Part shown: in pieces, positions 8,619 through 41,658 of the stretch
How positions within the stretch are numbered: the first letter of the stretch is position 1
How the letters are laid out: the number at the start of each line of letters is the position of its first letter
From: Bifidobacterium breve
GTDB taxonomy: Bacteria; Myxococcota_A; UBA796; SXON01
Reading direction: 5' to 3'
Assembly (NCBI GenBank): GCA_943328795.2
Contig: CALQBK020000015.1
Span: 1 to 47,980, forward strand
DNA: 47,980 bases
Program-made: the position numbers and the translations under genes
The notes under the pieces: model-generated
What the model was told of the DNA's origin: nothing
What the model saw: the letters and a program-made list of their open reading frames with translations, nothing else
The model's database searches: none

Positions 8619-10874
8619 CTAGTGCGTGGTCTGGCGCACCTTTCGCCATGCGACGTCAGCAGCGTCCAACCCGCGCACAGCCACCTCGTTGGGGAACCCA
8701 AGCGAGGTGAGCGCGACAAACCCATCAAACGTCCGGGCCTGCCCCAGCGCCCATGCCTCGTGGGCCGCGATGCTCGCCGCCCGCGTAGCAAGGGCCGCGA
8801 GCTGGTGGCCCCGCGGCGTGAGCTCCGGGGACGGCGCAAACCCGATCCCGACGGCGGTCGTCGAACCCAGGTTCCAGGCCTGCGCCAGGAGCATGCCGAC
8901 GCTCGGATAGACGAGGTCCGCCACGCCTGACACGAACTCGGCACTCGCCGACTCCTCCGGCTTGCGAGATGGCCCGCAGCGGTAGACCACGAGCTTTCCG
9001 AGTCCATGCAGCAGCGCCGCGAGGTAGGCATCCCCTGCGGGGTCGAACACGATGCTCACCTCCGCTGCCACCGTTGAAACCTCGCGCAGGTGGTCCGCCT
9101 TCGCCTGGTGGTTCCGGGCCTGGAACACCTTGGCGTTCATGCTGGCCGACATCGCGATCTGCCAAAGCCGCCGATGCCCGAGGCGCATCACCGCCTCCGG
9201 GACGTTCGCAGGAGGCGAGGCGCCGAAGGCAGCGCTGCTCGCCTCCTCCCAGACCCGCTTGAGCATACCCGGCTCGCGGATCACGACTTCGACCACCTGT
9301 TTCTGGTCGATGTCTCCCGCGCGCAACAGCCAGTCTAGCCGACGGGCGCCCGTTGGAAAGAGGGGGAAGTCCAGCTGCGGGGCGCTGCACGCGCGGACGA
9401 GCCTGTCGATGAACAGCCAGTCGTTCCGACTCGGCGCCGTCTCGCGCAGCGAATGAAGACGCTCCGTGAGGTGCACCCGGACGTTGGGCACGTCCGGCTC
9501 GGCGACGACCTCTCCGCCGTCCCAAGGAGCGGGGCTCTCGACGAACAAAGATCGGGCGGTTGTGCGGGGCTCCGTCCGCGGCGCCTCGGACGGGCCGGCG
9601 ACCGACTCTTGAGCCGGGGCTCTGCGGGCGAAGAAGCGTCGCCACCAAGTCCGCCACAGGCTCGGGGTCGGCCGACGCCGCTCCAGGCTGTCGGCCGGCC
9701 CGTCGAACATCCGCTCGACCTGCCCCTGGGTATACGGCGGGACCATCGTGCGTCCTGCGACGAGGCGGGGCCGGGCGCCGCTGGGCGCCGTGGGTATAGG
9801 CAGGAAGCGGGTGTTCCCGGGCTCGCCGACAGCCCGCGGCTGCTCATGCATCCGGCGGGCCTGCACGCTCCCGGCCAGCGCGCGCTCCCGCTCGCAACGC
9901 TCTTCGTAAGCAAACCGCTCCAGCATGAATCGGGAGAGGAGCTCCTGGATGAGTTCCGACGAAGCGGGGCGGAGGAAGTCCACAAGCTCCGCCTGCATTT
10001 CGCGAGCACTCTGGTACCGATTGTCGGGTTCGAGGGCGAGGGCGCGCATCACGATGGCGTCGAGCCGCGGGGGGACAAGCGCGTTCGTCGCGCTTGGCGG
10101 CAAGACCTCGGCGCGACGAACGCGCTCGAGCGTGTCCACCTCGGACACGCCCTTGAACAGCCGGCGGCCCGTCAACATCTCGTGCAGCAACACCCCGAGC
10201 GCAAAGATGTCCGACCGATGGTCCAGGTGAAGCCCGTAGGCCTGCTCCGGCGACATGTACCCCAACTTCCCAGTGATCGCGCCCACGTCTGTCTTTTCGA
10301 CGCAAGTGGCAGCGCGGACGATCCCAAAGTCGCCGACCTTCACCTCACCAAGGTAGGACACCAGGATGTTGGACGGGTTGATGTCCCGGTGAACGATGTT
10401 GAGCGGCTCGCCGGTGATCGACGTGCGCTTGTGCGCGTACTCGAGGCCCTTCGCGGCCTCCATAGCGATGTACACGGCGAGCGCGGTCGGGAGCAGCGCG
10501 CGACGGCGCGCGAGCTTGGAGAGGATGACTTTGACGTCCTTCCCCTCCACGCACTCCATCGCGATGTAATAGTTGTCCTCGACCTTCCCGAAGTCGTACA
10601 TCCGGACGATGTTCGCAGCCTGCAGGACGGCGAACACCTTCGCCTCGTCCATGAACATTCGAACAAACCGATCGTCACTCGACGGCGGCGCGGAGATGCG
10701 CTTGATCGCCAGCAGGCTCTCGACGCCACCCGCGCCGAAGCTCATCGCGCGGAAGATCTCCCCCATGCCGCCAGAACCAATCCGATCGATCAGGTAGTAC
10801 TTGCCGAAGACCTCGATTCGTACAGGCGCGAGCTCGCGCTCCTCCTCGGCGGTAATCGGCTCACCGTCGTTCAT
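8619..10874 (-). CDS. Ser/Thr protein kinase fused to an HDOD domain
   Basis: About 751 residues. The N-terminal part is a Hanks-type kinase: P-loop GSGGMG at 33-38, catalytic Lys K58, alpha-C Glu E77, HRD at 152-154, DFG at 172-174 and the SPEQ motif near 198. The catalytic loop reads HRDINPSN, with Asn in place of the usual Lys two residues after the Asp, as often seen in myxobacterial kinases. A proline- and arginine-rich linker (about 330-480) follows. The C-terminal part (about 500-740) is an HDOD domain, seen in MRLGHRRLWQIAMS and HGLGKLVVY, which has HG rather than the catalytic HD. No membrane helix was seen, so it is probably cytoplasmic. The ATG at 10874 is preferred; an in-frame GTG lies at 10907. 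It follows fliE after 189 bp and may share its transcript. Targets are unknown. Confidence 0.88.
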   Translation of the reverse strand: MNDGEPITAEEERELAPVRIEVFGKYYLIDRIGSGGMGEIFRAMSFGAGGVESLLAIKRISAPPSSDDRFVRMFMDEAKVFAVLQAANIVRMYDFGKVEDNYYIAMECVEGKDVKVILSKLARRRALLPTALAVYIAMEAAKGLEYAHKRTSITGEPLNIVHRDINPSNILVSYLGEVKVGDFGIVRAATCVEKTDVGAITGKLGYMSPEQAYGLHLDHRSDIFALGVLLHEMLTGRRLFKGVSEVDTLERVRRAEVLPPSATNALVPPRLDAIVMRALALEPDNRYQSAREMQAELVDFLRPASSELIQELLSRFMLERFAYEERCERERALAGSVQARRMHEQPRAVGEPGNTRFLPIPTAPSGARPRLVAGRTMVPPYTQGQVERMFDGPADSLERRRPTPSLWRTWWRRFFARRAPAQESVAGPSEAPRTEPRTTARSLFVESPAPWDGGEVVAEPDVPNVRVHLTERLHSLRETAPSRNDWLFIDRLVRACSAPQLDFPLFPTGARRLDWLLRAGDIDQKQVVEVVIREPGMLKRVWEEASSAAFGASPPANVPEAVMRLGHRRLWQIAMSASMNAKVFQARNHQAKADHLREVSTVAAEVSIVFDPAGDAYLAALLHGLGKLVVYRCGPSRKPEESASAEFVSGVADLVYPSVGMLLAQAWNLGSTTAVGIGFAPSPELTPRGHQLAALATRAASIAAHEAWALGQARTFDGFVALTSLGFPNEVAVRGLDAADVAWRKVRQTTH

Positions 10875-12177: not shown

Positions 12178-12204
12178 CTATCGGTCGGAAGCCGGTGGAC
12201 TTGA
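12178..12204 (-). promoter_or_regulatory. Sigma-28-like promoter of flgB-flgC-fliE
   Basis: On the minus strand: TCAAGTCC, 11 bases, ACCGATAG. The -10 box overlaps the stop codon of the TPR gene, and the flgB ATG is 19 bases beyond the end of the -10. The same -35 and -10 octamers occur unchanged before fliN. Confidence 0.75.
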
Positions 12205-14253
12205 GGCCTTTTTGCTCCGGCTCGCCGCGACACGTGCGTCAAAGCCAGCTTGCGCCTCGTCTTCCGTGCGCAGCCGGCTCCAGATGTCCCCGGGGACGCT
12301 CGGCGTTCCGGCGGTCCACGCGAGAAACCCGAGAGCGTCGGGGTCCACGAGGACCTTCGCGGCCTGTGCAGCGATCACCCGGGCATCATCCGGGTGCCCG
12401 GTCGCTACCAGGCAACGTGCCTCGTCCTCCTGCACCTCGGTCAGGGAGACCGAGGCAGGAAGGGGGTCCGGCCTCTTGCTGAACCCCACGAGCGCCTCCG
12501 CGCAGCGCCCGCTGTGGGCGTCGATCATCGCCCGGCGCAGCGCGGCCTCGGCGGCCTGCGGCGGGGGGCCCATCACCGTGGTGTACAAGGCCCAGGCGCC
12601 GAGGTCATTGCCGAGATCCTCCTGAATCGCCGCGCGCAGCAGCGTCATCCCCGCCGCGACTGCGGGATCGGGGGGGCGCGTGGCCAGCAGTTCAAGCGAC
12701 TGCTCGGCTTCGGGCGTGCTCCCGGACAGGCGATACAAACGCGCAATCGTGAGAATGGACGCCCGATCGTCAAGGCCCCGCCTGCCTTCGACCTCCGCCG
12801 CCGTGCGCATCAGATCGAGCGCGGGCTCGTACATGCTCAAGCGCTCGGCGGCCGCCGCAAGGTCGTAGAGCGGCTTCGGGTCATCGAGGTGGGCCACGAG
12901 CCCAGGCCGCCACACTCCGTCGTTCATCGCGAGCGCGTCCATGTCCCGGCCCGCCGCGAGCAGGTCCTCGACGCGAACCCGCCAGTCGCGAGTCAGGCGC
13001 ACCCCCGGCTCCCCCTCCAGGAAGCGACGGTCGCGGTCCACCAGCGTAGTCCACGCGTAGATCGCAAGCCGGGTGTCCGCTAGCGTCTCGCTGATCTGGC
13101 CGAGCAGGAACAGCGACTCGTACGCCTCGTCCCCGCCGCCCCGGCCCAGCCGCTCCAACACGGGGACCATCAGCGCCCACGCATCTGGCGACTGCTTGAG
13201 CAGGTTGAGCAGTGACGAGCGCGAGCGGAGCAAGGGGAGCCAGACGGCCGGCGGCCCACGGTTCGCGAGATCGGCGAGCGCCGCATCCGCGCCGGGCACG
13301 TCCCCAAGCAGGATCCGCGCGTCCACGACCAGGCGCAAGGCCATCATGGCCACGCCCTCGTCGCGATTCCCCACGGCCCTTTGCAGCACCGAGGCAGCCT
13401 CGTCCGCGCAGCCCCCGCGAAGGAGCAGCTCGCCCGCAACCAGCGACGACGACGCGCGCCCGGAGGTCAGGGCGAGCGTGCGCCCCGCAGTCACTGGATC
13501 GATGCCCGGCGTCATCAATGCGACGATCCCTTGGATCTCGGCCACGACCTCCGCATCCCCGCCCAAGCCCCGCGCCTCGACGGCCGAGGTCCCCGCGGCC
13601 GCCCACTCGCCGAGGGCGAGCTGGGCGCTGGCGCGCTGCAGGACGGCGGTGGCGCCGGGCGCCCCCAAGCGGGCGGCGACCGAAAAGTAGTACGCCGCCT
13701 CCCGTGAATGACCGAGATCCCGGTGCAGCGCGCCGAGGGCGTAGTGTGCGGCGGCATCGGCGGGGTCGAGCTTCGCGCGGAGCACCGCGACATGCTCCCA
13801 GGTGGGGTCCCCGACCTCGGCGTCGGTCCACCGCGGCATCGCGGGCATCACCAGCTCCGGACGGACGTCGCGCAGCATTTCGCGACCGCGCAACGGCACG
13901 AGCGGCGTACGCGGCGTGGCATCACATGCCCCGTCCCGTTGGAGAGGCGTCGGCCGGGCGGCCACGACGCTGGAGGTCCAGACGTCACCCTCCCGTCCAA
14001 GGGAGATCGAGGTGCCGGGCTCACGCATCGTCAGCGTGAACAGCCACACCGCCCCCATGTCCAGGAGCCTCCAGCTCCGGATGCCATCCAACGGCGCGTC
14101 GCCCAACTGCGGGCGCAAGTCGACGCTGTTGCCGTGCACTACGACCTCGACGCGACCCGGCACCACCATGGGGAGGACCTCCGCCGTCGCGCCGGGCGAG
14201 GGCGCGAAGCGGAGCGGTGCAGCGGCGGCAATGCCGATGAGCAACCAGATCAC
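12178..14253 (-). CDS. Secreted TPR-repeat protein of the fliD operon, function unknown
   Basis: A 691-residue protein not recognised as a standard flagellar component. The GTG at 14253 overlaps the upstream stop (GTGA) and gives a short signal peptide (residues 1-13, ending IGIAAAA), so it should be periplasmic or surface-located. Residues about 15-110 look beta-rich. From about 150 onward there are many helical pairs of TPR type (AAAHYALGALHRDLGHSREAAYYF, GGCADEAASVLQRAVGNRD, SMYEPALDLMRTAAE). The C-terminus is a charged Lys/Ser tail. It is the last gene of fliD-fliS-fliT-like-barrel-TPR. Periplasmic TPR proteins such as PflA/PflB scaffold flagellar motors in Campylobacter, so a motor-accessory role is a reasonable guess. 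No detailed similarity to PflA/PflB was visible. Confidence 0.7.
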   Translation of the reverse strand: MIWLLIGIAAAAPLRFAPSPGATAEVLPMVVPGRVEVVVHGNSVDLRPQLGDAPLDGIRSWRLLDMGAVWLFTLTMREPGTSISLGREGDVWTSSVVAARPTPLQRDGACDATPRTPLVPLRGREMLRDVRPELVMPAMPRWTDAEVGDPTWEHVAVLRAKLDPADAAAHYALGALHRDLGHSREAAYYFSVAARLGAPGATAVLQRASAQLALGEWAAAGTSAVEARGLGGDAEVVAEIQGIVALMTPGIDPVTAGRTLALTSGRASSSLVAGELLLRGGCADEAASVLQRAVGNRDEGVAMMALRLVVDARILLGDVPGADAALADLANRGPPAVWLPLLRSRSSLLNLLKQSPDAWALMVPVLERLGRGGGDEAYESLFLLGQISETLADTRLAIYAWTTLVDRDRRFLEGEPGVRLTRDWRVRVEDLLAAGRDMDALAMNDGVWRPGLVAHLDDPKPLYDLAAAAERLSMYEPALDLMRTAAEVEGRRGLDDRASILTIARLYRLSGSTPEAEQSLELLATRPPDPAVAAGMTLLRAAIQEDLGNDLGAWALYTTVMGPPPQAAEAALRRAMIDAHSGRCAEALVGFSKRPDPLPASVSLTEVQEDEARCLVATGHPDDARVIAAQAAKVLVDPDALGFLAWTAGTPSVPGDIWSRLRTEDEAQAGFDARVAASRSKKASSPPASDR

Positions 14254-14813
14254 AGCGTCACCACGACCCCAAGCCCAATCTTCACCGCGCTCAAGTCGAA
14301 GCCGCACACGGGTTCGTCGCCGCAAACCTCCCCGTGACGGCGCATCATCGCCCGGTATCCTCCGGAGATGTCGAGGAAGAACGCAGAATCGGTCGCCTGG
14401 AGCTCCCCGAGGTGGATTCGCGCGTTTCCCTCCACGAGCCCACCCCACTTCCACCCCCGACTGGTGGAGGCGTCGCCCTGTCCGGTCTGCTCGGCGAACG
14501 ACACCGTTGCAGGGCCCACGCCGAGGCCCAGGTCGACCCGGCCGAGAGCCTTGTGGAAGCCCACTAGTCCCGTGATCGGCAAGTAGCGGATCCAGCTCGT
14601 TGCATCGGTGACCTCACCCTCCGCGTCCACGAGGTTACCGCCCATCCGCCGGTACCCGACGAGCAATGTCACGCGGAGCCCACGGGGGAAGTCCGAGGAG
14701 GCCAGGACCTCTCCCGAGAGCGACTGGTCGCCGTACATCTGCGCGAGCATCGCATCGTTCACGCTCTCGCCCGAGAGACGAAGGCCCAAGGAGAGCCCCG
14801 ACAGGCCTGTCAC
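14250..14813 (-). CDS. Predicted beta-barrel or beta-rich protein, no recognisable signal peptide
   Basis: A 187-residue protein made largely of alternating hydrophobic and polar residues typical of amphipathic strands (GLRVTLLVGYRRM, GRVDLGLGVGPATVSF, AFFLDISGGYRAM, VKIGLGVVVTL). It therefore resembles a small outer-membrane barrel. Two cysteines (VCGDEPVCGF) could form a disulfide in an external loop. Oddly, the GTG start at 14813 leads straight into a strand-like sequence, and the frame extended upstream inside the preceding gene shows no signal peptide. It overlaps its neighbours by 4 bp on both sides (GTGA), so coupled translation with the fliT-like and TPR genes is likely. Function unknown; an outer-membrane partner of the TPR protein is possible. 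Confidence 0.6.
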   Translation of the reverse strand: MTGLSGLSLGLRLSGESVNDAMLAQMYGDQSLSGEVLASSDFPRGLRVTLLVGYRRMGGNLVDAEGEVTDATSWIRYLPITGLVGFHKALGRVDLGLGVGPATVSFAEQTGQGDASTSRGWKWGGLVEGNARIHLGELQATDSAFFLDISGGYRAMMRRHGEVCGDEPVCGFDLSAVKIGLGVVVTL

Positions 14814-26341: not shown

Positions 26342-26998
26342 CTACCCCTTGATCCGGTTGAGCCGGGCCTGCATTTCGTCGCTTGTTTGCATGACTTTTT
26401 CCTGCGCGTCGAAGAATCGCGACGCCTCGATGAGATCCACCATCGCCCGCATGGCATCCACGTTGCTGCCCTCGCGGGCCCCCTGCACCACCGTCATGTT
26501 CTCGGCGGGAGTGGCGGTCCCGGACCAGCGCCCGCCGCCCAGGGGCGTCGCGTCGGCCAACCGCACCAGCTGGAGTCGACCGATCTCGCCGGACAGCGAG
26601 CCGGTCACCATCCCCTCGGTCGAGACGGTCAGGTACTCCCCGGGATCAAGTTGAATGGGCCCGCCCTCCGTCATCACCGGCGTCCCGTCGGAGGTGACGA
26701 GCTGCCCCTCCGTGTCGAGGCGAAAGCCACCGTCCCGTGTCGCCGTGCCGTCTGCCAGGGCGAAGAAGCCATCCCCGCGCAGTGCCAGGTGCGTGGGGAC
26801 CCCGTCAGTCGCGAGCTCGCCGTCCGACCGGTTGAACGTCGTGCCCGCGGACTTGACCGACGTCACGTCGACGAGCTCGAAGTGCTGGCGCGCCTCACGG
26901 AACCCCTGCGTGTTCGCATTCGCCACGTTGTTGGCGATCATCTCGAGCTGTTTCCAGGCCGCTGATGCGCCGGTAAACGAGGTATAAAGGTCACGCAT
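26342..26998 (-). CDS. flgF: FlgF, proximal rod protein
   Basis: A 218-residue rod protein, shorter than FlgG but of the same family. It starts MRDLYTSFTGASAAWKQLEMIANNVANANTQGFREARQHFELVD, has the core GDGFFALADGTATRDGGFRLDTEGQLVTSDG and ends SNVDAMRAMVDLIEASRFFDAQEKVMQTSDEMQARLNRIKG. Its ATG at 26998 overlaps the end of fliA by 8 bp. A longer frame reaching back through fliA is not supported. Confidence 0.9.
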   Translation of the reverse strand: MRDLYTSFTGASAAWKQLEMIANNVANANTQGFREARQHFELVDVTSVKSAGTTFNRSDGELATDGVPTHLALRGDGFFALADGTATRDGGFRLDTEGQLVTSDGTPVMTEGGPIQLDPGEYLTVSTEGMVTGSLSGEIGRLQLVRLADATPLGGGRWSGTATPAENMTVVQGAREGSNVDAMRAMVDLIEASRFFDAQEKVMQTSDEMQARLNRIKG

Positions 26999-27815
26999 GG
27001 GGCTTCTCCACCGGATCGAGCAAGAGGACCTCCATGTCGTTTCCGTAGTCCGCATCGATGTCGACGTCGATGCCGATCGCCTTGCGCAGCTTGACCCGCG
27101 CGCTGGAGAGCACCTGGCAGACCCGGGAGGGCGTGACATCGAGGACCGCCCCGATTTCGGCCAAGGAGCAATCACGGGCGTAGTAGAGCAGCACGACCTG
27201 ACGCTCCCGAGTCGGCAGCGAGGTGATCGCTGCGCGCAACGCCGCACGGGCATCCTCGTCCATGAACCGCCTCGGGCCATCCGCCTCGGAGACACCGAGC
27301 CGCGGGTCCTCGGAGTGGACCGAACTCGATTCGCGCCTGACTGGTAGCGAGAGCGAGCGCATCCGCCAGTAGGTTTCGAGGTTGACGCCGAGGTGCGCCG
27401 CCATCTCCGCGTGGCACGGCTCCCGGCCAAGCGCCTCGCGGGTCACGCTGGTGGCCTTCGCAAGCTCCCGACTGACTTGGCTCTGCCGGCGCGTGATTCC
27501 AGATCCGCGCCGCTCGGCGTCGAGCATGGCGCCGAGGATCCGATACGAGGCGTAGCTCGAGAAGTCGACGTTCAGGCTTGGTTCGAACCGGTCGAACGCT
27601 TCCAGGAGCCCCACGACTCCATACCCCACGAGGTCCTCGACCGGGACGTCGCCGCCGCCCGGTGCCCTGTCCGACACCCGCCGTGCGAGCAACAGGATGC
27701 GCCGGGAGAACCGCTCACACGCTTCACCCCGGGTCAAGCCCTCCACGATGCGCTCGCCTTCACAGCGATTGTAGCCACGGGGAATCACGCTCAGTTGAAT
27801 CTCAAGCACATGCAT
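26991..27815 (-). CDS. fliA: FliA, flagellar sigma-28 factor
   Basis: A sigma-70-family factor of the FliA type, about 274 residues. Region 2 is seen in VEDLVGYGVVGLLEAFDRFEPSLNVDFSSYASYRILGAMLDAERRG. Region 3 follows (ITRRQSQVSRELAKATSVTREALG). Region 4 contains LPTRERQVVLLYYARDCSLAEIGAVLDVTPSRVCQVLSSARVKLRKAI with its helix-turn-helix. A short acidic tail follows. The ATG at 27815 lies inside the -10 box of the promoter at 27812-27838, so if that promoter alone drives the gene, translation should begin downstream, for example at the GTG at 27788. The gene leads the fliA-flgF-flgG-flgA-flgH-motA-motB unit and is divergent from fliL. It should read all the sigma-28-like sites found here, including its own. 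Confidence 0.9.
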   Translation of the reverse strand: MHVLEIQLSVIPRGYNRCEGERIVEGLTRGEACERFSRRILLLARRVSDRAPGGGDVPVEDLVGYGVVGLLEAFDRFEPSLNVDFSSYASYRILGAMLDAERRGSGITRRQSQVSRELAKATSVTREALGREPCHAEMAAHLGVNLETYWRMRSLSLPVRRESSSVHSEDPRLGVSEADGPRRFMDEDARAALRAAITSLPTRERQVVLLYYARDCSLAEIGAVLDVTPSRVCQVLSSARVKLRKAIGIDVDIDADYGNDMEVLLLDPVEKPHA

Positions 27816-32092: not shown

Positions 32093-33154
32093 ATGTCGGA
32101 CGATGGGGAGAAGACGGAGCAGGCCACAGAGCGACAGGTCCAGAAGTTTCGGGAAGACGGCAAGGTCGCGACCTCCAAGGAGCTCCTCGCTGCGGTGGGG
32201 CTGTGCGTCGGTGCCTTCGCGCTGATCTCGAACATGTCGGGCATCAGCGGGGGCGTCGTCCGCGTCGCCCGCGACAGCTTCGCCCGCGGCGTGACCCGGG
32301 AGTTCGTGAGCGCCGACCTCACGTCGCTGACGCAGCGCACGATCGCGGCCGTCGGGCCGGGCGTGTTCGGCGCCCTGACGCCCGGGGTGCTCGCATGCCT
32401 CGGGGTCGGCCTCGTCATCACCGGGTTCAACCTAAGCACCGAGGCCATCAGCCCCGACCCCGCGCGTCTCGACCCCGTCGCGGCGGCCAAGAGCACGTTC
32501 TTTTCGATGTCGCCCTGGGTCAACCTCGCGAAGGCGTCCACCATCGCCGTGCTGCTGACCTGGTCCGTGTACTCGGCGCTCGCTGGTCACGCCAGCGCGC
32601 TGCCGATCGTCGGGGCGTGGCCCGTGGGGGCCCAACTGCGCTTCCTCGGCGTGCTCACACAGGCGGTACTCACTCGCGCGCTCCCCATGGCGCTGGCGCT
32701 CGGGGGCGCGGACTTCGCGTGGCAGAAGTACCAGCTCTCCGAGCAGATGATGATGACGCGGCACGACGTGCGGCAGGAGCACAGAGAGTCCGAGGGCGAT
32801 CCCCAGGTCCGCGCCCGCCGCAAGCTGCTCGCCCGGCAGCTGCGCAACCTCCAGCAACTCGTGGAAGTGGCACGCGCCGACGTGATCGTCACCAACCCGA
32901 CCCACTACGCGGTCGCGTTGCGGTACCGCAAACTCGAGAACGCCTCTCCGGTGGTCGTCGCACGCGGCGTGGACCACCTCGCCTTGAAGATCCGCACTGA
33001 GGGGAGCCGCCACGACGTCCCCATCATCGAGAACCGCGGGCTCGCCCGGGCGCTGTACGCCCGCTCAAAGGTCGGGGCGCCGATCCCGAGCGAGTTCTTC
33101 GGTCCGGTGGCCCAGGTCCTCGCGCTGGTCTACCGCCGGCGACAGCGCAAGTAA
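32093..33154 (+). CDS. flhB: FlhB, export-substrate specificity switch
   Basis: A 353-residue inner-membrane protein with four helices and a cytoplasmic domain. It starts DDGEKTEQATERQVQKFREDGKVATSKE, the classical FlhB N-terminus. The autocleavage motif NPTH is at residues 268-271, in VTNPTHYAVALRY, and the C-terminal sequence VARGVDHLALKIRTEGSRHDVPIIENRGLARALY follows. Self-cleavage at this site switches export from rod and hook to filament subunits. It starts two bases after fliR and ends the export-gate block. Confidence 0.96.
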   Translation: MSDDGEKTEQATERQVQKFREDGKVATSKELLAAVGLCVGAFALISNMSGISGGVVRVARDSFARGVTREFVSADLTSLTQRTIAAVGPGVFGALTPGVLACLGVGLVITGFNLSTEAISPDPARLDPVAAAKSTFFSMSPWVNLAKASTIAVLLTWSVYSALAGHASALPIVGAWPVGAQLRFLGVLTQAVLTRALPMALALGGADFAWQKYQLSEQMMMTRHDVRQEHRESEGDPQVRARRKLLARQLRNLQQLVEVARADVIVTNPTHYAVALRYRKLENASPVVVARGVDHLALKIRTEGSRHDVPIIENRGLARALYARSKVGAPIPSEFFGPVAQVLALVYRRRQRK

Positions 33155-33173
33155 GGGGCGGCGAAAATAGGCC

Positions 33174-33200
33174 TCAACTCGGGGCTGGAGCGGCCGATGA
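33174..33200 (+). promoter_or_regulatory. Sigma-28-like promoter of the surface-protein operon
   Basis: TCAACTCG, 11 bases, GCCGATGA, in the 109-bp gap after flhB. The -10 box is close to the enteric GCCGATAA. The first gene starts 64 bases past the -10 end. This ties the three non-flagellar surface genes to flagellar expression. Confidence 0.65.
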
Positions 33201-33263
33201 AGGGGAAATGCACACCCGGCCCCGCCGTCACGGAACCCCCTTGCTCTCCGGCGAGTATCGCAC

Positions 33264-34613
33264 ATGCTGCTCCTAGCGAGCGTGGCCTGGGCCACGACCA
33301 GCGCCGCCTCCTTCACGACGGACTCCGGCGACTGGGTAGGGGGCACGACCGATGGCGGCGTGCTCACGGTCACGGACGGCGCCGCTACGCTCACGACAGG
33401 CGCGATGGCCACCTTCGTGCTGGACGCGCGCATCCGGCTCACCACGGGCGCGTCGATCACCACCCAGGCGGGCGATGCCGAGCTCGTCACGACCTGGGGC
33501 TCCGGCGGCGAGGTCGCGCTGGGTGGGACGACCACCGCCCTCCCGCTGGCGGAGCAGGCGTGGAACCCGATCGGCACCGGACTCGAGGGGGGGGAGCCCG
33601 AGCTGCTGCGAATGGACGGCAGCTGGCTGCTGTACAGGTCAGTCGGCGACAGCATCGAGGCCGCCAGCTCTGCCGACGGGGTCGTCTGGACGGAGATCGG
33701 GGTGGTCGCAGATGGCACCTCCCCCAACGTCGTAGACCTCGGAGACAGCGTCGTGCTGTACACCAGCTGCGGCACCGCGATCTGCCGCGTCGACTCTGAC
33801 GACGGGCTCGACTTCGGGTCGCCGGCGGCGGTCCTCGACGGCGCGCTCTCGGCCGTCGCCCGCGACGCCGATGGCGCCTGGTGGATCTGGTACACCGACG
33901 CGGACGGGTTCGAGCTGGCGACGTCGACCGACGGCGTGACGTTCAGCCTCTACTCGCCCCTCGCGGACGACGGGCGCCTCGGAGACCTGGACGTGTACGG
34001 GAGCTACAACGGTGCCTGGGATGCGTCGGACGGCCTCCACCTGTCCCGGGACACCGACCCCACTTTTGGCAGCTCCGCGGGGGATGCGGGCCCCCTCGCC
34101 TTCAGCTGCGACGCCCCGACGGACCCGTCGCTCGCGATGGAAGGCGTTGCCTGGTACCTCGCGGCGGTGTGCGACGGCGCGCCCAGCGTGGCGCTGGGCA
34201 CGCCAGCGCCGGGGAGCTGGACCGACCTGCACGCGGAGTGGGACGGCACCACGCTCACGGCCACCTGGGGCGATGCTGACCCGCTCACGGTCGCGCTCGC
34301 CGCCGCGGAGAGCATCTCGTTCGAGGCGAACGGGACGCTCGAACTGGACGAGGCCGTCCTGGTGTACGACGCCAGCGGCGACACCGCCGAGACGGGTGAC
34401 ACCGGGGAGACTGCCGACACGGGCGACACCGGTGACACCGCGGCAGACACCGCCGGCATCGGAGACAGCGCCGGCCCGCTCTACACCGGCGCAGATCTCA
34501 CCGGGGAGCCCGGGGGGTGCGGCTGTGCAACGGCGGCCCGCAACCCCGGCTGGCTGGTGCTGGGCGCGCTGCTCGTGCTGGTGGGTCGCCGTCCGGCCCG
34601 ACGCGAGTCATGA
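33264..34613 (+). CDS. Secreted beta-propeller-like protein with MYXO-CTERM-like tail
   Basis: A 449-residue exported protein, no flagellar homologue recognised. It has a signal peptide (MLLLASVAWATTSA). The middle (about 90-290) has repeated blade-like blocks (PELLRMDGSWLLYRSV, NVVDLGDSVVLYTSC, AVARDADGAWWIWYTD, ELATSTDGVTF) resembling five-bladed glycosidase-type propellers. A linker of TGDTGDT-type repeats follows. The tail has a Cys-Gly-Cys (about 417-420), a hydrophobic helix (WLVLGALLVLVG) and a basic end (RRPARRES), the layout of MYXO-CTERM surface-sorting signals. It is the first gene of a three-gene operon, overlapping the next by 4 bp. A carbohydrate-binding or enzymatic role is conceivable, but catalytic residues are not obvious. 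Confidence 0.72.
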   Translation: MLLLASVAWATTSAASFTTDSGDWVGGTTDGGVLTVTDGAATLTTGAMATFVLDARIRLTTGASITTQAGDAELVTTWGSGGEVALGGTTTALPLAEQAWNPIGTGLEGGEPELLRMDGSWLLYRSVGDSIEAASSADGVVWTEIGVVADGTSPNVVDLGDSVVLYTSCGTAICRVDSDDGLDFGSPAAVLDGALSAVARDADGAWWIWYTDADGFELATSTDGVTFSLYSPLADDGRLGDLDVYGSYNGAWDASDGLHLSRDTDPTFGSSAGDAGPLAFSCDAPTDPSLAMEGVAWYLAAVCDGAPSVALGTPAPGSWTDLHAEWDGTTLTATWGDADPLTVALAAAESISFEANGTLELDEAVLVYDASGDTAETGDTGETADTGDTGDTAADTAGIGDSAGPLYTGADLTGEPGGCGCATAARNPGWLVLGALLVLVGRRPARRES

Positions 34614-37600
34614 CATCGCTGCTGCTGGTCCTGTCAGCCCGAGCCGCTACCCTCGCCGTGGGTCCGCGGGAGGCCTACTCCACCATCGGGTCCGCGGTGG
34701 ATGCCGCCGTAGATGGCGACACCATCGAGGTCGCGCCCGGCATCTACGCGGAGGCCATCGACCTCGGCGGGCGTGACCTCTCAGTGCGCGGCACGGGGGG
34801 CTCCGGCGCGACGCTGCTCGCCCCGGGCCCCGGCGAGGACGGGATCGTGCTGGCCGCCGGCGAGGACGCCACGTTCACCGGCTTCACCATCACCCCTTCT
34901 GGCGGGCGAGGCATCGTCGTCTCCGGCGGCACGCTCGTGGTGGACGACGTGGTCATCGCGGCGGCAGGTTCGGCGGACAGCACGGGCGGGGCGCTGTACG
35001 TAGACGCCGCCACCGTCTCGCTTGCGAACGTCGAGCTGAGCGGAAACACCGCGGCGTCGGGTGCACACGCCTACCTCACGGGCGGCGCGACGCTGTACGC
35101 GTCCGATCTCGTGCTCACGGGCGGCGCCGCCACGAACGGCGGCGCGTTCTGGGCCGATGGCGGTTCCACCATCACGCTCGTGAGCGTGACCGCCACGAGC
35201 CCCGTCGCGGAGCAGGAGGGAGGCTTCGCCTGGCTCGAATCGGCCTCGCTCACGGCCGATGGGCTCATCCTCGACTCCCCCGCGGCGGGCAACGGCGGCG
35301 GGTTCATGCTCGGCGCATCCGCGAGCCTCGACCTCACCGGCTCCAGCATCAGCGGGGCCCGCGCGGACACCGGCTCCGGCGGCGCCATCTGCGCCACCGA
35401 CTCAAGCCTCGCGCTCACCGACACGGAGCTGATCGGGGGCGCGGCGTTCACGGGCGCCGGGCTCGACCTCTCCGGTGCCTCGACCGCAGCCCTGGTCCGC
35501 GTGACGGTCTCCGGCCAGACCAGCGCGTCCGACGCCGGCGCGGCCTGGGCCCACGATGACGCGGCGATCACCTGCACGAGCTGCACTTTCCAGGGCAACA
35601 CCTCCGGCGGTGACGGCGGCGCGGTGCGGTTGAGCACCGGCGGGGCCCTCGACGACGTGGATGGCACCTGGCAGGACAACGTCGCAGCAGGCAGCGGCGG
35701 GGCGGCGGCCGCCGACAGCACGGGGTCGCTCACGTTCACGGGGACGGCGGTCTCTTCGAACGCGGCGGGCCTCGACGGCGGCGGGGTGTACACCCAGGGC
35801 GGACTGGCGCTCGACTCCGCGACGTTCTCCTTGAACACGGCCTCGACGGGCGACGGCGGCGGCATCTGGGCGGGCTCCAGCCTCGTGATCACGGACGGGA
35901 CCTTCGACAGCAACGTCGCCACGCAAGGGAGCGGCGGCGCCATCGCCGTGCAGGGCGACGTCTACGTTGACGGCCCCACTTTTCGGGACAACACGTCCCT
36001 CGGGGATGGCGGAGCCATCCTCGGGACAGGCGGCTGGGTGAGCATGATCGGGCTCGTGGCGCTCGGGAACCAGGCCGGCGGCGACGGCGGCGCCCTCTGC
36101 CTCGATGGCAACAACGAGGTCTCGCTCGTTGGCGGCTACCTGTATGGCAACACGGGTACGGATGGCGGCGCGATCGCGCTGCGCGCGCCAGCAGTCTCGG
36201 CGACGCTCCAGAACCTCGCCGTCACCGACAACGCGGGCGTGGACGGCGCCGGCGTGTGGATCGACGGGACCGTGCAGGTCGAGGTCCTGAACAACACCTT
36301 CGCCGGGAACGACGCGAGCGGGGCCGGCGCGCACCTGTACACCGAGGCGCCCGTGAGCTTCGTCGACAACGTGATGCTGGACGCGCTCGGCGGTGGCGGC
36401 GCGTACGGGTCGACGGACGCAGGCTCCGATCGGTCCTACACTGTCGCGTGGGACAACGCAGGCGGGGACTGGGCGGGCTGGTCGGACGTGGACGGCACGA
36501 GCGGGAACCTGGCGGCAGACCCGCTGCTCGTCAGCTACACAGCCGACGGGGACCGGTCAAACGACGACCTCCACCCGCAGGCCGCCAGCCCGTGCATCGA
36601 CGCCGGCTCGCCGGCGATCTTCGATCGCGACGGCTCCCGCGCAGACGTCGGCGTGTACGGCGGGCCGAACGCCGCGCTCGAGGACCTCGACGGCGACAGC
36701 TGGACCGACGACGTGGACTGCGACGATGCGGACGGCAGCACCTACCCAGGGGCCCCCGAGGTGCCCTATGACGGCATCGACCAGGACTGCGATGGGGTCG
36801 ATGCCGAGGACCTGGACGCAGACGGGTACGCGTCCAGCACCGTGGGGGGCCCGGACTGCGACGACGCAGACGCCAGCGTGTTCCCCGGCGCCCCCGACGC
36901 CTGGTACGACGGCGTCGACAGCGACTGCGGCGGCGGCTCAGACTTCGACTCCGACGGTGACCTCCACGACGCCGCGCTCGGTGGCGGCGGCGACTGCGAC
37001 GACACGGATCCCACGGTGTACGACGGAGCACTCGATGCCTGGTACGACGGCGTCGACAGCGACTGCGACGGTGGGAGCGACTTCGACCAGGACGGCGACG
37101 GTCAGGACGCAACGCCGTGGGGCGACGACTGCGACGACAGCAACGCCGGACGCTACGCCGGCAACATCGAGACCCCGTACGACGGCATCGACCAAGACTG
37201 CTCCGGCGCCGACCTCGTGGACGTGGACGGAGACGGCTGGGTAGGGACGACCGCGGGCGGGACCGACTGCGACGACGGCGACCCCTCCACCTACCCGGGC
37301 GCCCCTGAGGACCCCGTGGACGGCGTGGACAGCGACTGCGACGGCTCCGACGAGTGGGACTACGACGCCGACGGCTACGAGAACGACCTCGGCGACGGCT
37401 CCGACTGCGACGACAACGACGAAGACGTGAACCCCGGGGCGACCGAGACCTGGTACGACGGCATCGACCAGGACTGCGACGGGCGCGACGACGACCAAGA
37501 CGGCGACGGGTACGGCGTCGCCACGGACTGCGACGACATCGACCCGGCCGTCCACCCCGGCGCGACCGAGATCGAGAATGGCCTCGACGACGACTGCGAC

Positions 37601-38074
37601 GGCTGGGCCGAGACCGAGGACCAGGACGGCGACGGCCTGACCGAGCTGCAGGAGAAGGCCCTCGGGACCGATCCGATGAACCCCGACACCGACAACGACT
37701 CGCTCCTCGACGGGTTTGAGTACACGTCGGGCCCCGACCGCGACGGGGACGGCGTGATCGACCCGCTGGACACCGACGACGACGGAGACAGCATCCCCAC
37801 GGCCCACGAGCTCAGCTACGACGTGGATTTCGACGGCATCCTCGACACCGACGTGGACGACGACGGGCTCATCAACTCCTGGGAGCTCGACAGCGACGGG
37901 GACGACGACCCAGACCGCCTCGAAGGCGAGGTTGACAGCGATGGCGACGGCGTTCCCGACTTCTTGAGCTACGACGGGCCGCTCGTCGGCAGCGGGTGCG
38001 GCGGTGGGAAATGGGCAGGCGCGCTCGTGATCGGCGGGTTGATCCGCCGGGTCCGCCGCGCGGAGCGCTCGTGA
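34610..38074 (+). CDS. Giant secreted beta-helix protein with MopE and TSP3 repeats
   Basis: A 1154-residue exported protein. A short signal (TSLLLVLSARA) is followed by AVGPREAYSTIGSAVDAAVDGDTIEVAPGIY, the usual entry to a right-handed beta-helix. That region runs to about 640 and is built from Gly/Ala/Ser-rich turns (SGGDGGAV, GSGGAIAV, DGGAIALR). Residues about 690-1005 hold seven MopE-type units, each with DCDD-x-D, then YPGAPE-like, then YDGIDQDCDG. Thrombospondin type 3 Asp-rich calcium repeats follow (about 1005-1125). The C-terminus is a Cys-Gly-containing, basic, helix-bearing sorting tail (GSGCGGGKWAGALVIGGLIRRVRRAERS). An adhesin, sheath or filament-like surface structure that binds metal or calcium is likely. 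The start overlaps the preceding gene, and the stop overlaps the next. Confidence 0.82.
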   Translation: MTSLLLVLSARAATLAVGPREAYSTIGSAVDAAVDGDTIEVAPGIYAEAIDLGGRDLSVRGTGGSGATLLAPGPGEDGIVLAAGEDATFTGFTITPSGGRGIVVSGGTLVVDDVVIAAAGSADSTGGALYVDAATVSLANVELSGNTAASGAHAYLTGGATLYASDLVLTGGAATNGGAFWADGGSTITLVSVTATSPVAEQEGGFAWLESASLTADGLILDSPAAGNGGGFMLGASASLDLTGSSISGARADTGSGGAICATDSSLALTDTELIGGAAFTGAGLDLSGASTAALVRVTVSGQTSASDAGAAWAHDDAAITCTSCTFQGNTSGGDGGAVRLSTGGALDDVDGTWQDNVAAGSGGAAAADSTGSLTFTGTAVSSNAAGLDGGGVYTQGGLALDSATFSLNTASTGDGGGIWAGSSLVITDGTFDSNVATQGSGGAIAVQGDVYVDGPTFRDNTSLGDGGAILGTGGWVSMIGLVALGNQAGGDGGALCLDGNNEVSLVGGYLYGNTGTDGGAIALRAPAVSATLQNLAVTDNAGVDGAGVWIDGTVQVEVLNNTFAGNDASGAGAHLYTEAPVSFVDNVMLDALGGGGAYGSTDAGSDRSYTVAWDNAGGDWAGWSDVDGTSGNLAADPLLVSYTADGDRSNDDLHPQAASPCIDAGSPAIFDRDGSRADVGVYGGPNAALEDLDGDSWTDDVDCDDADGSTYPGAPEVPYDGIDQDCDGVDAEDLDADGYASSTVGGPDCDDADASVFPGAPDAWYDGVDSDCGGGSDFDSDGDLHDAALGGGGDCDDTDPTVYDGALDAWYDGVDSDCDGGSDFDQDGDGQDATPWGDDCDDSNAGRYAGNIETPYDGIDQDCSGADLVDVDGDGWVGTTAGGTDCDDGDPSTYPGAPEDPVDGVDSDCDGSDEWDYDADGYENDLGDGSDCDDNDEDVNPGATETWYDGIDQDCDGRDDDQDGDGYGVATDCDDIDPAVHPGATEIENGLDDDCDGWAETEDQDGDGLTELQEKALGTDPMNPDTDNDSLLDGFEYTSGPDRDGDGVIDPLDTDDDGDSIPTAHELSYDVDFDGILDTDVDDDGLINSWELDSDGDDDPDRLEGEVDSDGDGVPDFLSYDGPLVGSGCGGGKWAGALVIGGLIRRVRRAERS
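36690..37620 (+). repeat. Seven MopE-type DNA-encoded units
   Basis: Tandem units of about 110-150 bp, each coding DCDD and a YDGxDxDCxG motif with GACTGCGACGAC-like cores. The spacers vary. The Cys in each unit is conserved, suggesting a metal- or disulfide-based role. Confidence 0.75.
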
Positions 38075-39519
38075 TCACGCTGATCTCGGTGGCGCTCGCC
38101 CTGGATGTCGACACCTTCACCACCGGGGCGACAACCGGGGACCCCACGGCCTTCACGCGGCTCGGCTCGCAGGCGACCGGAGAGGGCGGTGACTGGGACG
38201 CTGGCCTGGTGATGGACTACGCCGACGCCCCGCTCTCCGAGCAACTGCCGGCAGGCCGGGCCCCCGTGATCGACGCGCTCGCCACGGCGAACCTGCTCGG
38301 AGGCTACAGTTTTGGGGGGCTGCGGCTCGACGGGACCCTCCCCCTGCACTTCGGGGCCGAGACCGACGGCGCCTACGCGGTCACGGGAGACGCCCGCCTG
38401 GGCGCACAGCTCGTGGTACCCGGCGTACGACCCCTCGCGCTTGGGCTCACCGTGATCCTGCCGACCGGCGCGAACGCGCGCTACGTCGGCGGGCCGCCCC
38501 GCCTCGTCACCCTCGTACGCTGGGGCCACGAGTTCGGCCGCGTGGGGGTGCTCGCCGTTGGCGGTGCGGTCCTGTCGTTGCCGGAGGATTCGCCCGGGCT
38601 CACCTCGGGCGCGGGGCCGGTGATCGGCGCGGGCGCAGGCTACCGCGTGAACGACGCGCTCTCGGCGATGTTCGAGCTCTCGGCGCAGGGCGAGTGGGGG
38701 TTTACCTCCGTGCCGGTCGAGGCCACGCTGTCGGGGAGGATGCGGCTGCCCGACGGGGTCTGGGCGAGCGCCGGGGCAGCCGCCGGCCTGGGCAATGGCA
38801 TAGGCGCCAGCCGCTGGCGGGCGATCGCCGGGATCGGGTACTCGGGGAGGACACGGAAGGTCCTAGTCCCGACGGCCGAGCAGATCGCGGGGGACCCCAC
38901 CGCAGATCAGGATGACGACAGCATCCTGAACGGGGCCGACCGGTGTCCCGACCAGGCCGAGACCGTCGACGGGGTCCAGGACGAGGACGGCTGCCCCGAG
39001 TTCGACGGGGACGGCGACGGCGTGCCGTTCGCGAGGGACGTGTGCCCTACCCAGCCGATCCTCCCGGAGCAGGACCCGCGCTACTCCGACGGATGCCCGC
39101 ACGTCGCAGAGCTCGCGGGGGACCATGTCGCGGTCACAGAGACGATCCTGTTCCGGGAGGGCCGGACGGAGCTCCTTGCGAGCGCTGACCCCCTCCTCCA
39201 GGCCGTGCGCGACCAGATGCTCGCGCACCCCGAGATCCAGCTGTTCCTCATCGAGGGCCACGCCAACGCAGACGGCCCCGATGACTACAACCTGCGCCTC
39301 TCGGACGCGCGGGCGTTCTCCGTCATGCGTTGGCTCGTGGACCACGGCGTGGACCGCACCCGCCTGATCTCGAAAGGGTACGGCGAGGCCGTGCCGCTCG
39401 CCGAGGACGGCACCCCCGACGCCCTCGTCGTGAACCGGCGCGTCGAATTTCGGGTCGTCCACGTGGAGGAGATCCCCGCAGACGCCCGCCACGTCGAGAT
39501 CCCCGCCGACGTGCGCTGA
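38071..39519 (+). CDS. Outer-membrane protein with barrel, TSP3 linker and OmpA peptidoglycan-binding domain
   Basis: A 482-residue protein. A signal peptide (ITLISVALAL) leads to a beta-barrel of about 280 residues (LGGYSFGGLRLDGTLPLHFG, PLALGLTVILPTG, MFELSAQGEWGF). A TSP3-type calcium linker follows (DQDDDSILNGADRCPDQAE, DEDGCPEFDGDGDGVP). The OmpA domain has VTETILFREGRTELL, IEGHANADGPDDYNLRLSDARAFSVMRWLV and LISKGYGEAVPLAEDGTP. It would anchor the outer membrane to peptidoglycan. The GTG overlaps the end of the beta-helix gene. Together with the two preceding proteins it probably forms an envelope-anchored surface assembly. Confidence 0.82.
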   Translation: MITLISVALALDVDTFTTGATTGDPTAFTRLGSQATGEGGDWDAGLVMDYADAPLSEQLPAGRAPVIDALATANLLGGYSFGGLRLDGTLPLHFGAETDGAYAVTGDARLGAQLVVPGVRPLALGLTVILPTGANARYVGGPPRLVTLVRWGHEFGRVGVLAVGGAVLSLPEDSPGLTSGAGPVIGAGAGYRVNDALSAMFELSAQGEWGFTSVPVEATLSGRMRLPDGVWASAGAAAGLGNGIGASRWRAIAGIGYSGRTRKVLVPTAEQIAGDPTADQDDDSILNGADRCPDQAETVDGVQDEDGCPEFDGDGDGVPFARDVCPTQPILPEQDPRYSDGCPHVAELAGDHVAVTETILFREGRTELLASADPLLQAVRDQMLAHPEIQLFLIEGHANADGPDDYNLRLSDARAFSVMRWLVDHGVDRTRLISKGYGEAVPLAEDGTPDALVVNRRVEFRVVHVEEIPADARHVEIPADVR

Positions 39520-39538
39520 CCGCCGAGCTCTTTTCTCC

Positions 39539-39565
39539 TCAACTGTGGGCACACCCGACCGATGG
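39539..39565 (+). promoter_or_regulatory. Sigma-28-like promoter of flhA
   Basis: TCAACTGT, 11 bases, ACCGATGG, immediately after the OmpA-like gene. An ATG at 39562 is inside the -10 box; the next ATG at 39574 is 9 bases after the -10 end. Confidence 0.7.
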
Positions 39566-39573
39566 AGAGGGTG

Positions 39574-41658
39574 ATGGCCTCCCAGGTACCCGCCGCTGGC
39601 TCGATGATGGCCCTCGTCCGTGAAAACGGGGATATCGCGCTCGCGGTCGGCGTGTTCGGCATGCTCGCGCTGCTCATGGCGCCCCTGCCGCCGATTCTCC
39701 TCGACGTGTTCCTCGCGCTGTCGATCACGCTCTCGCTGCTCATCTTCCTGGTCTCGCTCTACGTAAAGCGCCCGGTGGAGTTCTCGGCGTTCCCGATCAT
39801 CCTGCTCATCTCGACGCTGTTCCGGTTGTCGTTGAACGTGGCCTCCACGCGGCTCATCCTGCTCCACGGCGGCGATGGCCCGGGGGCAGCCGGGCACGTC
39901 ATCCAGGCGTTCGGAGACTTCGTGGTCGGCGGGAACTACGTCGTCGGGTTCATCCTGTTCTGCATCCTGCTGGTGATCAACTTCATCGTCATCACCAAGG
40001 GCGCCGGCCGCGTCGCAGAGGTCGCAGCCCGGTTCACCCTCGACGCGCTTCCCGGCAAGCAGATGGCCGTAGACGCCGAGATGAACGCCGGGATCATCGA
40101 CGAGAAGGTGGCGAAGCGCCGACGCGCCGAGGTTGCCCGCGAGGCGGACTTCTACGGCGCGATGGACGGCGCGAGCAAGTTCATCAAGGGCGACGCCATC
40201 GCCGCCATCGTGATCATGCTCATCAACCTTCTCGCGGGAATCGTGATCGGCGTCGGGATGCACGGCCTCGATCTCAAGACCGCGGCCGCCAACTACACCT
40301 TGCTCACGATCGGGGAGGGGCTCGCCAGCCAGGTGCCGGCGCTGATCGTCTCGGCCGCCGCCGGGTTGCTGGTCACCCGCGTGGCCTCCATCGACGAGGA
40401 GAGCCTGGACGCTCAGTTCGGAACCCAGCTGCTCGGCAGCCCCCGCGCCCTCGCGGTGCTGGCCGCGCTGGCGGGCACGTTCATCCTGGTGCCCGGGCTC
40501 CGGGCCCCCTTCGCCGTGATCTCTGCGCTGCTTGGGGGCCTGGCGTACTCCCTTCGTGACGTGCCCGTCCCGGTGGCGGTCGCGACCTCGTCCGAGGCAA
40601 TGGCAGTCACCAACGAGCAGCGGATCGAGGACATGCTGCGCGTGGAGCCGCTCGTCGTGGAGGTCGGTCTCGACCTCGTGTACCTCGTGGACGAGAAGCG
40701 CGGCGGGGCCCTCGTCGAGCGTATCCAGAAGATCCGTCGACAGGTCGCGCAGAACCTCGGCGTCGTGCTGCCGCCCGTGCGCCTGCGCGACAACGTGCGC
40801 CTCGGGGTAGGGCAATACAAGGTGCTCCTGCGGGGAGAAGCCGTCGGGAGCGGCAAGATTTACGCGAGGCAGCTCCTTGCGCTTGACCCGGGGACGGCGT
40901 CGGGCACGCTCTCCGGCGTCCGCGGGGTGGACCCCGTGTACGGGCTGAAGGGCTTCTGGATCCCGGAGGCGATGAAGCTCCGCGCCCAGTCTCAGGGGTA
41001 TACGGTCGTCGACGCGCCCACGGTGCTCACAACCCACCTCGACGACCTGCTTCGGCGGCACGCCCACGAGCTGTACGGGCGCCAGCAGCTCGCGGAGGCA
41101 CTCGAGCGGGTCGCCTCGCAGAACCCGCGCCTGGTCGAGGAGTTGATCCCGGATCCCCTGCCACGCGCCGCCGTCCTCCGCGTGTTCCGGAACCTCATCC
41201 AGGAGGGCGTCGGTGTCCGCGATGCCCAAGCCGTCCTAGAGGCGCTGGCCGACTACGCGCCCCGCACCCGGGACCCCGAGGTGCTCACAGAGTTCGTCCG
41301 CCAGCGCCTGAGCCGGTCGGTGACAGCGCGATTCGTCAGCGAGGATGGCACGCTCTGCTACCTCGGCCTCGGCGCCGAGGCCGAGGACGTCGTCGTACGC
41401 GGGCTGCAGGGAGGCGAGGGCGGCGCGATGACGCTCGTGCTCGACCCCGACACCACCCGGCGCCTGATCGGCGCGATCCGCACGCAGACCGAGAGCTGGA
41501 GCGGCACAGGCGACCTCGTGTTCCTCGTCCCTCCCCTCGCCCGCGGCCCCATGCGCCGGTTGCTCGAGAAGGTCCTGCCCCGCGTACCGGTGCTCAGCCC
41601 CGGCGAGATCGTGCCCGGCACCCCGCTCTCCCGGGCGGCCGAGATCCGCCTGAAGTAG
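39574..41658 (+). CDS. flhA: FlhA, flagellar export apparatus protein
   Basis: A 694-residue inner-membrane export protein. The N-terminal half has eight predicted membrane helices and the FHIPEP-type block KQMAVDAEMNAGIIDEKVAKRRRAEVAREADFYGAMDGASKFIKGDAIAAIVIMLINLLAGIVIG. The C-terminal cytoplasmic domain begins near residue 345 (RIEDMLRVEPLVVEVG), contains KIYARQLLALDPG and ALADYAPRTRDPEVLTEFVRQRLSRS, and docks chaperones such as FliS and FlgN. I prefer the ATG at 39574: an earlier ATG at 39562 falls inside the promoter -10 box, and 39574 gives an almost leaderless message. Its usual partner flhB is separated from it by the surface operon. Confidence 0.95.
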   Translation: MASQVPAAGSMMALVRENGDIALAVGVFGMLALLMAPLPPILLDVFLALSITLSLLIFLVSLYVKRPVEFSAFPIILLISTLFRLSLNVASTRLILLHGGDGPGAAGHVIQAFGDFVVGGNYVVGFILFCILLVINFIVITKGAGRVAEVAARFTLDALPGKQMAVDAEMNAGIIDEKVAKRRRAEVAREADFYGAMDGASKFIKGDAIAAIVIMLINLLAGIVIGVGMHGLDLKTAAANYTLLTIGEGLASQVPALIVSAAAGLLVTRVASIDEESLDAQFGTQLLGSPRALAVLAALAGTFILVPGLRAPFAVISALLGGLAYSLRDVPVPVAVATSSEAMAVTNEQRIEDMLRVEPLVVEVGLDLVYLVDEKRGGALVERIQKIRRQVAQNLGVVLPPVRLRDNVRLGVGQYKVLLRGEAVGSGKIYARQLLALDPGTASGTLSGVRGVDPVYGLKGFWIPEAMKLRAQSQGYTVVDAPTVLTTHLDDLLRRHAHELYGRQQLAEALERVASQNPRLVEELIPDPLPRAAVLRVFRNLIQEGVGVRDAQAVLEALADYAPRTRDPEVLTEFVRQRLSRSVTARFVSEDGTLCYLGLGAEAEDVVVRGLQGGEGGAMTLVLDPDTTRRLIGAIRTQTESWSGTGDLVFLVPPLARGPMRRLLEKVLPRVPVLSPGEIVPGTPLSRAAEIRLK

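Follow-up and report, generated by a model that had tools for sequence, protein, structure and literature searches.

A three-gene operon for putative surface proteins between flhB and flhA carries a flagellar-type promoter and co-occurs with flagellin

The stretch of DNA analysed here, referred to as the window, was 47,980 nt in length and represented the complete contig C15 of a 4.79-Mb metagenome-assembled genome that was 86% complete; the genomes compared with it were draft or metagenome assemblies throughout. The minus strand of the window carried genes for flagellin and FlgK/FlgL-type proteins, flgI, flgH, flgG, motAB, and fliA-type genes, and the plus strand carried fliL, a FliN-type gene, fliO-fliP-fliQ-fliR-flhB, a block of three genes, flhA, fliF, fliG, fliH, fliI, and fliJ, with some of these genes being assigned by position only. 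The three genes of the block, designated genes 1, 2, and 3 with the products P1, P2, and P3, were coupled by two 4-bp overlaps, ATGA between genes 1 and 2 and GTGA between genes 2 and 3, so that gene 2 overlapped both of its partners (Table 1). The open reading frames, their lengths, and the overlaps were all as described in an earlier sequence-only reading of this DNA, which had placed three overlapping genes between flhB and flhA. Elsewhere in the flagellar cluster, genes for conserved 691-aa and 187-aa proteins without a clear Pfam family were located on the minus strand at nt 12178-14253 and 14250-14813, respectively, and were also present in genome G007 (L081); a kinase-HDOD fusion was encoded at nt 8619-10874 of the window.

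Table 1. Coordinates of the three-gene block, its promoters, and flagellar genes relevant to it (nt positions in the window)
Feature	Position	Strand	Evidence and remarks
Sigma factor of the FliA family that may recognise the promoter motif	26991..27677	-	TIGR02479 149 bits, below cut-off 189.6; sigma-70 r2/r3/r4
flhB, upstream neighbour	32093..33154	+	PF01312, 305.8 bits
Sigma-28-type promoter of the operon, CTCAACTCGGGGCTGGAGCGGCCGATG	33173..33199	+	CTCAA 33173-33177, N16, CCGATG 33194-33199
Gene 1 (P1), 449 aa	33264..34613	+	Signal peptide; putative propeller of glycosidase type (GH130/GH43/GH32); linker rich in Thr/Asp/Gly; C-terminal tail of MYXO-CTERM type
MYXO-CTERM-type tail of gene 1 (GEPGGCGC...VGRRPARRES)	34503..34610	+	TIGR03901 16.7 bits, cut-off 20
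Gene 2 (P2), 1154 aa	34610..38074	+	Signal peptide, right-handed beta-helix (PF13229), 7 MopE metal-binding repeats (PF11617 x7), TSP3, POMP_repeat, MYXO-CTERM-type tail
MYXO-CTERM-type tail of gene 2 (GSGCGGGKWAGALVIGGLIRRVRRAERS)	37988..38071	+	Comparison covered the tails of 14 P2 proteins and the readable fusion junctions; retained within fused P2-P3 frames
Gene 3 (P3), 482 aa	38071..39519	+	Signal peptide, predicted outer-membrane beta-barrel, TSP3 repeats, OmpA domain PF00691 55.7 bits
OmpA domain of gene 3	39148..39435	+	Asn399 (codon 39265-39267) replaces DAP-binding Asp; Arg414 kept
Separate sigma-28-type promoter for flhA, CTCAACTGTGGGCACACCCGACCGATG	39538..39564	+	CTCAA-N16-CCGATG; same motif 5' of flhA in most relatives
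flhA, downstream neighbour	39562..41658	+	PF00771, 782 bits; start 39562 or 39604, the latter likelier by coding usage

The window protein of gene 1 itself had no Pfam match; the P1 family shared weak but consistent matches to GH130/GH32/GH43-type folds (best in orthologues, PF04041, 1.7e-6), in keeping with the beta-propeller-like nature suggested earlier. For gene 2, previously described as a 1154-residue beta-helix/MopE/TSP3 protein, length and domains were recovered; these three were the only domain types obtained from Pfam and NCBIfam, and no TraA-type model was matched. MYXO-CTERM-like tails had been attributed to two of the proteins. That of gene 1 scored below the cut-off of the curated model, but 10 of 17 gene 1 orthologues matched the model at E<=0.1, while that of gene 2, GSGCGGGK-TM-RRVRR, fitted the MYXO-CTERM pattern by eye and was not called by the model.

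Gene 3 orthologues showed 68% mean column identity (n=19). The best curated model for gene 3 was TraB, with 144 bits versus a cut-off of 700; the match covered the TSP3 and OmpA regions, and in relatives it extended into the barrel part. The N-terminal region is predicted to form an outer-membrane beta-barrel, since a few family members matched PF13505/PF13557 weakly. Structure models of genes 1 and 3, built from 3-sequence alignments (window, L018, and L021), were poor, with pLDDT of 49 and 35, respectively. OmpA of A. baumannii binds DAP through Asp271 (D271) and Arg286 (R286) (PMC5974059), residues that an alignment by motif equated with Asn399 and Arg414 of gene 3. All 28 flagellum-linked P3 sequences inspected possessed the form GH(T/A)N, in which the DAP-binding Asp is changed to Asn, and the Arg was kept in the window and the family; three paralogues had the form GHTD. 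In a tree, the 28 flagellum-linked proteins were separated from the paralogues with a support of 99/98. Since the DAP-binding Asp was Asn in every flagellum-linked P3, peptidoglycan binding is not to be assumed; thus, of the OmpA-type barrel holding peptidoglycan that the sequence-only reading had proposed, the OmpA domain stood and the barrel was backed by weak matches, whereas the peptidoglycan binding became doubtful. Paralogous P2-like and P3-like genes, with the GHTD form, without the promoter motif described below, and located outside the flagellar cluster, were paired on contig C1 of the same genome (L175, 4217-10363) and in L176 (8789-12297).

Sigma-28 sites have the geometry TAAA-N15-GCCGATAA, into which CTCAA-N16-CCGATG fits. 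The motif 5' of the operon conformed to the FliA-type pattern T(A/C)AA-N15-nCCGAT, and both sites postulated in the earlier reading, one before gene 1 and a separate one before flhA, were found. Enrichment of the motif was judged by pattern searches against a reversed-pattern control. The 4.79-Mb genome had 16 matches to CTCAA-N16-CCGAT, eight of them within this 48-kb contig, and a stricter pattern with a final R gave 14 matches genome-wide versus 4 for the reversed control; the motif was therefore rare in this genome. The chance of a match in the 109-bp gap between flhB and gene 1 was about 6e-5. A further match was situated directly 5' of a flgD-like gene on contig C45. In total, 206 matches versus 93 for the control, about double, were observed in 19 flagellin-positive genomes of the family, as compared to 11 versus 12 in three flagellin-negative ones.

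Comparisons were extended to 22 genomes of the family and 63 of the order. In two genomes of the same genus (G003 and G005), the block lay between flhB and flhA as in the window. In G008, G009, and G010, P2-P3 preceded flhA and was separated from it by a single gene, either small or of the HDOD type, the P1-P2 end of G009 being on a second contig; the HDOD-domain gene between P3 and flhA was located at L084 5745-6644 and L101 14083-14925 (G008 and G010). Altogether, P2-P3 lay directly or nearly directly 5' of flhA in six genomes of four genera. Most members of genus g6 had the P1-P2-P3 operon elsewhere, not adjoining flagellar genes; its distance before flhA was 5.5 kb in G015 and 21 kb in G014. 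The three genes thus stood beside flhA in G003 and G005, and P2-P3 close to it in G008 to G010, but not in most of g6, and adjacency to flhA is not the essential feature.

The promoter motif accompanied the genes to these other loci. At 21 motif sites before P1, P2, or P3 genes of the family, the boxes were 98% conserved and the spacer 54%. Nine g6 genomes with the operon away from flagellar genes had the motif 7-8 nt 5' of gene 1, and in G019 and G021, where genes 1, 2, and 3 were scattered, each had its own copy of the motif 7 nt 5' of its start. This retention at remote loci and in front of split genes, the strongest single result of the analysis, indicates that the promoter belongs to P1-P3 and not to their flagellar neighbours. 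Outside the family, the motif was not convincingly found before the P2-P3 frames of G043, G044, and G028, nor with the usual spacing in G036; flagellar control there was therefore clear only for G031 and G032 and weak for G022. Because the flagellar core genes carry the same motif, it cannot place the module early or late in assembly. In g6 (L086, L088-L097, L148, L149, L152, and L153), numerous promoters of the flagellar type had a CCGATR box ending only 7-9 nt 5' of the start codon, so that leaderless or nearly leaderless mRNAs would result. Genes weakly similar to that of a FliA-type sigma factor were noted upstream of P1 in G007 (L085, 9610-10413) and upstream of the fused P2-P3 in G022 (L165, 11812-12726).

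Flagellin, instead of FlhA, was used as the marker of flagella, since G011 and G021 possessed flagellins but no FlhA, presumably owing to assembly gaps. Within the family, a full-length gene 3 orthologue was present in 19 of 19 flagellin-positive and none of three flagellin-negative genomes (G002, G004, and G006; Fisher 6e-4), the latter keeping many other OmpA proteins despite the missing orthologue. Within the order, a strong match to the gene 3 barrel (at least 134 bits) was obtained in 29 of 44 flagellin-positive genomes, the other 15 having no such match, versus 0 of 19 flagellin-negative ones (Fisher 5e-7); both Fisher values ignore shared ancestry and are optimistic for that reason. Joint absence of flagellin and module recurred in at least the genera g1, g3, and g9; relatives in the families of these genera possess the two together. 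Eight genomes from other orders of the class gave no match at E <= 1e-60. The sequence-only reading had regarded wide occurrence of the block in non-flagellated relatives as evidence against its proposal; the flagellin-negative genomes lacked a gene 3 orthologue. Its view of the block as its own regulated unit, expressed with the flagellum, was strongly supported by the motif at remote and split loci together with the co-occurrence with flagellin, and genes 1-3 very probably belong to the flagellar regulon.

A full-length relative of gene 1 was present in 17 of the 22 family genomes; weak gene 1 matches in L098-L100 were paralogues without the motif. In G010 and G001, and in genomes outside the family, no P1 gene was found next to P2-P3. 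Thus, P1 is not essential and P2-P3 constitutes the core of the module. P2 and P3 were adjacent with short overlaps, or formed one frame, in most genomes. Single open frames joining the two were observed in three genomes of the family (G007, G008, and G009) and in G022, G028, G031, G032, G043, and G044 of other families, and probably occur in G023 and G060 as well. Wherever the junction was readable (G007, G008, G009, G022, and G031), a Cys-TM-Arg tag was followed by a signal-peptide-like stretch and then by the start of mature P3. Retention of the tag and of a second signal peptide suggests one precursor that is cut into two proteins in a fixed ratio.

This layout has known counterparts. TraA-TraB of Myxococcus xanthus is an overlapping two-gene operon that pairs a surface protein of the MYXO-CTERM class with an outer-membrane protein carrying an OmpA domain (PMC3325183, PMC11980579). 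P2-P3 is likewise an overlapping pair of a MYXO-CTERM-type and an OmpA protein, the latter matching the TraB model, but gene 2 is of the beta-helix/MopE type, whereas TraA is a PA14 lectin/Cys-rich protein; gene 3 falls far below the TraB cut-off; and a flagellar-type promoter, the tie to flagella, and an additional propeller gene distinguish the present system. MXAN_5598 of the same species consists of an adhesin region, an internal MYXO-CTERM, and a barrel/OmpA region, and adjoins ftsA/ftsZ (PMC11980579). The fused P2-P3 of the five genomes with readable junctions agrees with it in the described order of parts and differs in having a sigma-28-type promoter on the module in place of the ftsA/ftsZ neighbourhood. 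Sorting at an internal tag was proposed for MXAN_5598, and called rare, in the paper on myxosortase, in which MYXO-CTERM tails are said to be a trait of Myxococcota (PMC11980579). The tails of this type encoded here thus point to Myxococcota as the source group. The Cys-TM-Arg tails of genes 1 and 2 resemble those of myxosortase-sorted proteins, but those in the window are below or outside the curated model (TIGR03901/TIGR03382) and belong to proteins very probably co-regulated with flagella. The flagellar proteins MotY, PomB, and MotB have the OmpA fold in common with gene 3; they match it less well than other outer-membrane OmpA proteins do, and gene 3 adds the N-terminal barrel-type region and TSP3 repeats. 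The architecture, considered undescribed in the earlier reading, is therefore not wholly new, as the P2-P3 layout is that of TraA-TraB and MXAN_5598 (PMC11980579, PMC3325183). P2 and P3 probably form a TraAB-like surface complex; the module would work like TraAB but, by curated score and gene 2 architecture, is not TraAB.

A possible mechanism can be outlined from these features. Gene 3 would be an outer-membrane beta-barrel with a periplasmic TSP3/OmpA tail, holding the gene 2 protein, which would be exported, cleaved at its MYXO-CTERM-type tag, and lipid-anchored on the cell surface. The two would be present at about 1:1, a ratio secured either through translational overlap or, where relatives have a fused frame, through a single precursor. 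Another surface protein of the MYXO-CTERM type, this one bearing a carbohydrate-type propeller, would be provided by gene 1. A FliA-type sigma factor would restrict the module to cells making the flagellum, so that swimming cells would carry an adhesin or receptor, whose likeliest use may be catching particles, polysaccharide, or prey, or recognising other cells. We favour this reading, an accessory adhesin or receptor of swimming cells made only with the flagellum, over a part of a collar or sheath, with a probability of roughly 0.6.

Collar, sheath, and adhesin are indistinguishable at the level of sequence, and other explanations have to be weighed against the preferred one. The module might belong to the flagellar structure itself, at the outer membrane, as a collar, disc, or sheath-linked ring surrounding the rod or hook; gene 3 would then be in the membrane and genes 1 and 2 outside. 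Its invariable company with flagellin at the order level, the placement of P2-P3 at or near flhA in six genomes of four genera, the promoter motif shared with core flagellar genes, and an OmpA domain that, without the DAP-binding Asp, may bind something besides the cell wall would suit such a role; however, the 15 flagellin-positive genomes without the module show that it is not a core part, the domain layout is that of surface adhesins and receptors (TraAB and MXAN_5598), unlike known collars, and searches of Pfam and NCBIfam gave no FlgH/FlgO/FlgP/FlgT-type match. A flagellar part thus appears rather unlikely. Slightly more doubtful still is a version in which a TraAB-type module of this uncultured myxobacterium-type order was turned into a physical flagellar accessory (collar, disc, or sheath attachment), its OmpA domain being re-purposed through the Asp to Asn change so as to bind a flagellar partner instead of the cell wall; the whole would in many cases be made as a single precursor containing an internal sorting tag and signal peptide.

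A true outer-membrane-exchange or kin-recognition receptor, orthologous to TraAB and recruited to swimming cells, is improbable: its layout and overlap would be those of traAB (PMC3325183), and the TraB model does reach the barrel part in relatives, but gene 3 attains 144 of the 700 bits required and gene 2 matches no TraA-type model. Chance insertion of an unrelated surface operon between flhB and flhA, with no flagellar connection, might be imagined in a genome with dozens of OmpA-type surface genes (28 OmpA-type matches) and with a P2-P3-like pair without the motif on contig C1. This very improbable explanation was rejected on account of the motif, which accompanies the genes at remote loci and precedes each split gene, and of the co-occurrence (29/44 versus 0/19).

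With the adhesin or receptor reading, flagellar swimming and MYXO-CTERM surface adhesion or recognition, usually treated apart, are joined by a signal of promoter and co-inheritance, which each further genome of the group allows one to verify, and the module offers a concrete candidate for attachment or recognition by swimming cells in a lineage about which little is known. Fused frames, which carry a MYXO-CTERM-type tag internally and a second signal peptide, lend themselves to tests of internal-tag sorting, and the Asp to Asn change is a testable sign of an OmpA domain with a changed ligand. In G019 and G021 (L089, 8420-16318; L091, 9911-17821), gene 1 headed a different operon under the same motif, encoding a 623-aa tail-anchored protein, a 552-aa OmpA protein, and a protein of 850-940 aa; here, gene 1 is the partner of another P2/P3-like pair.
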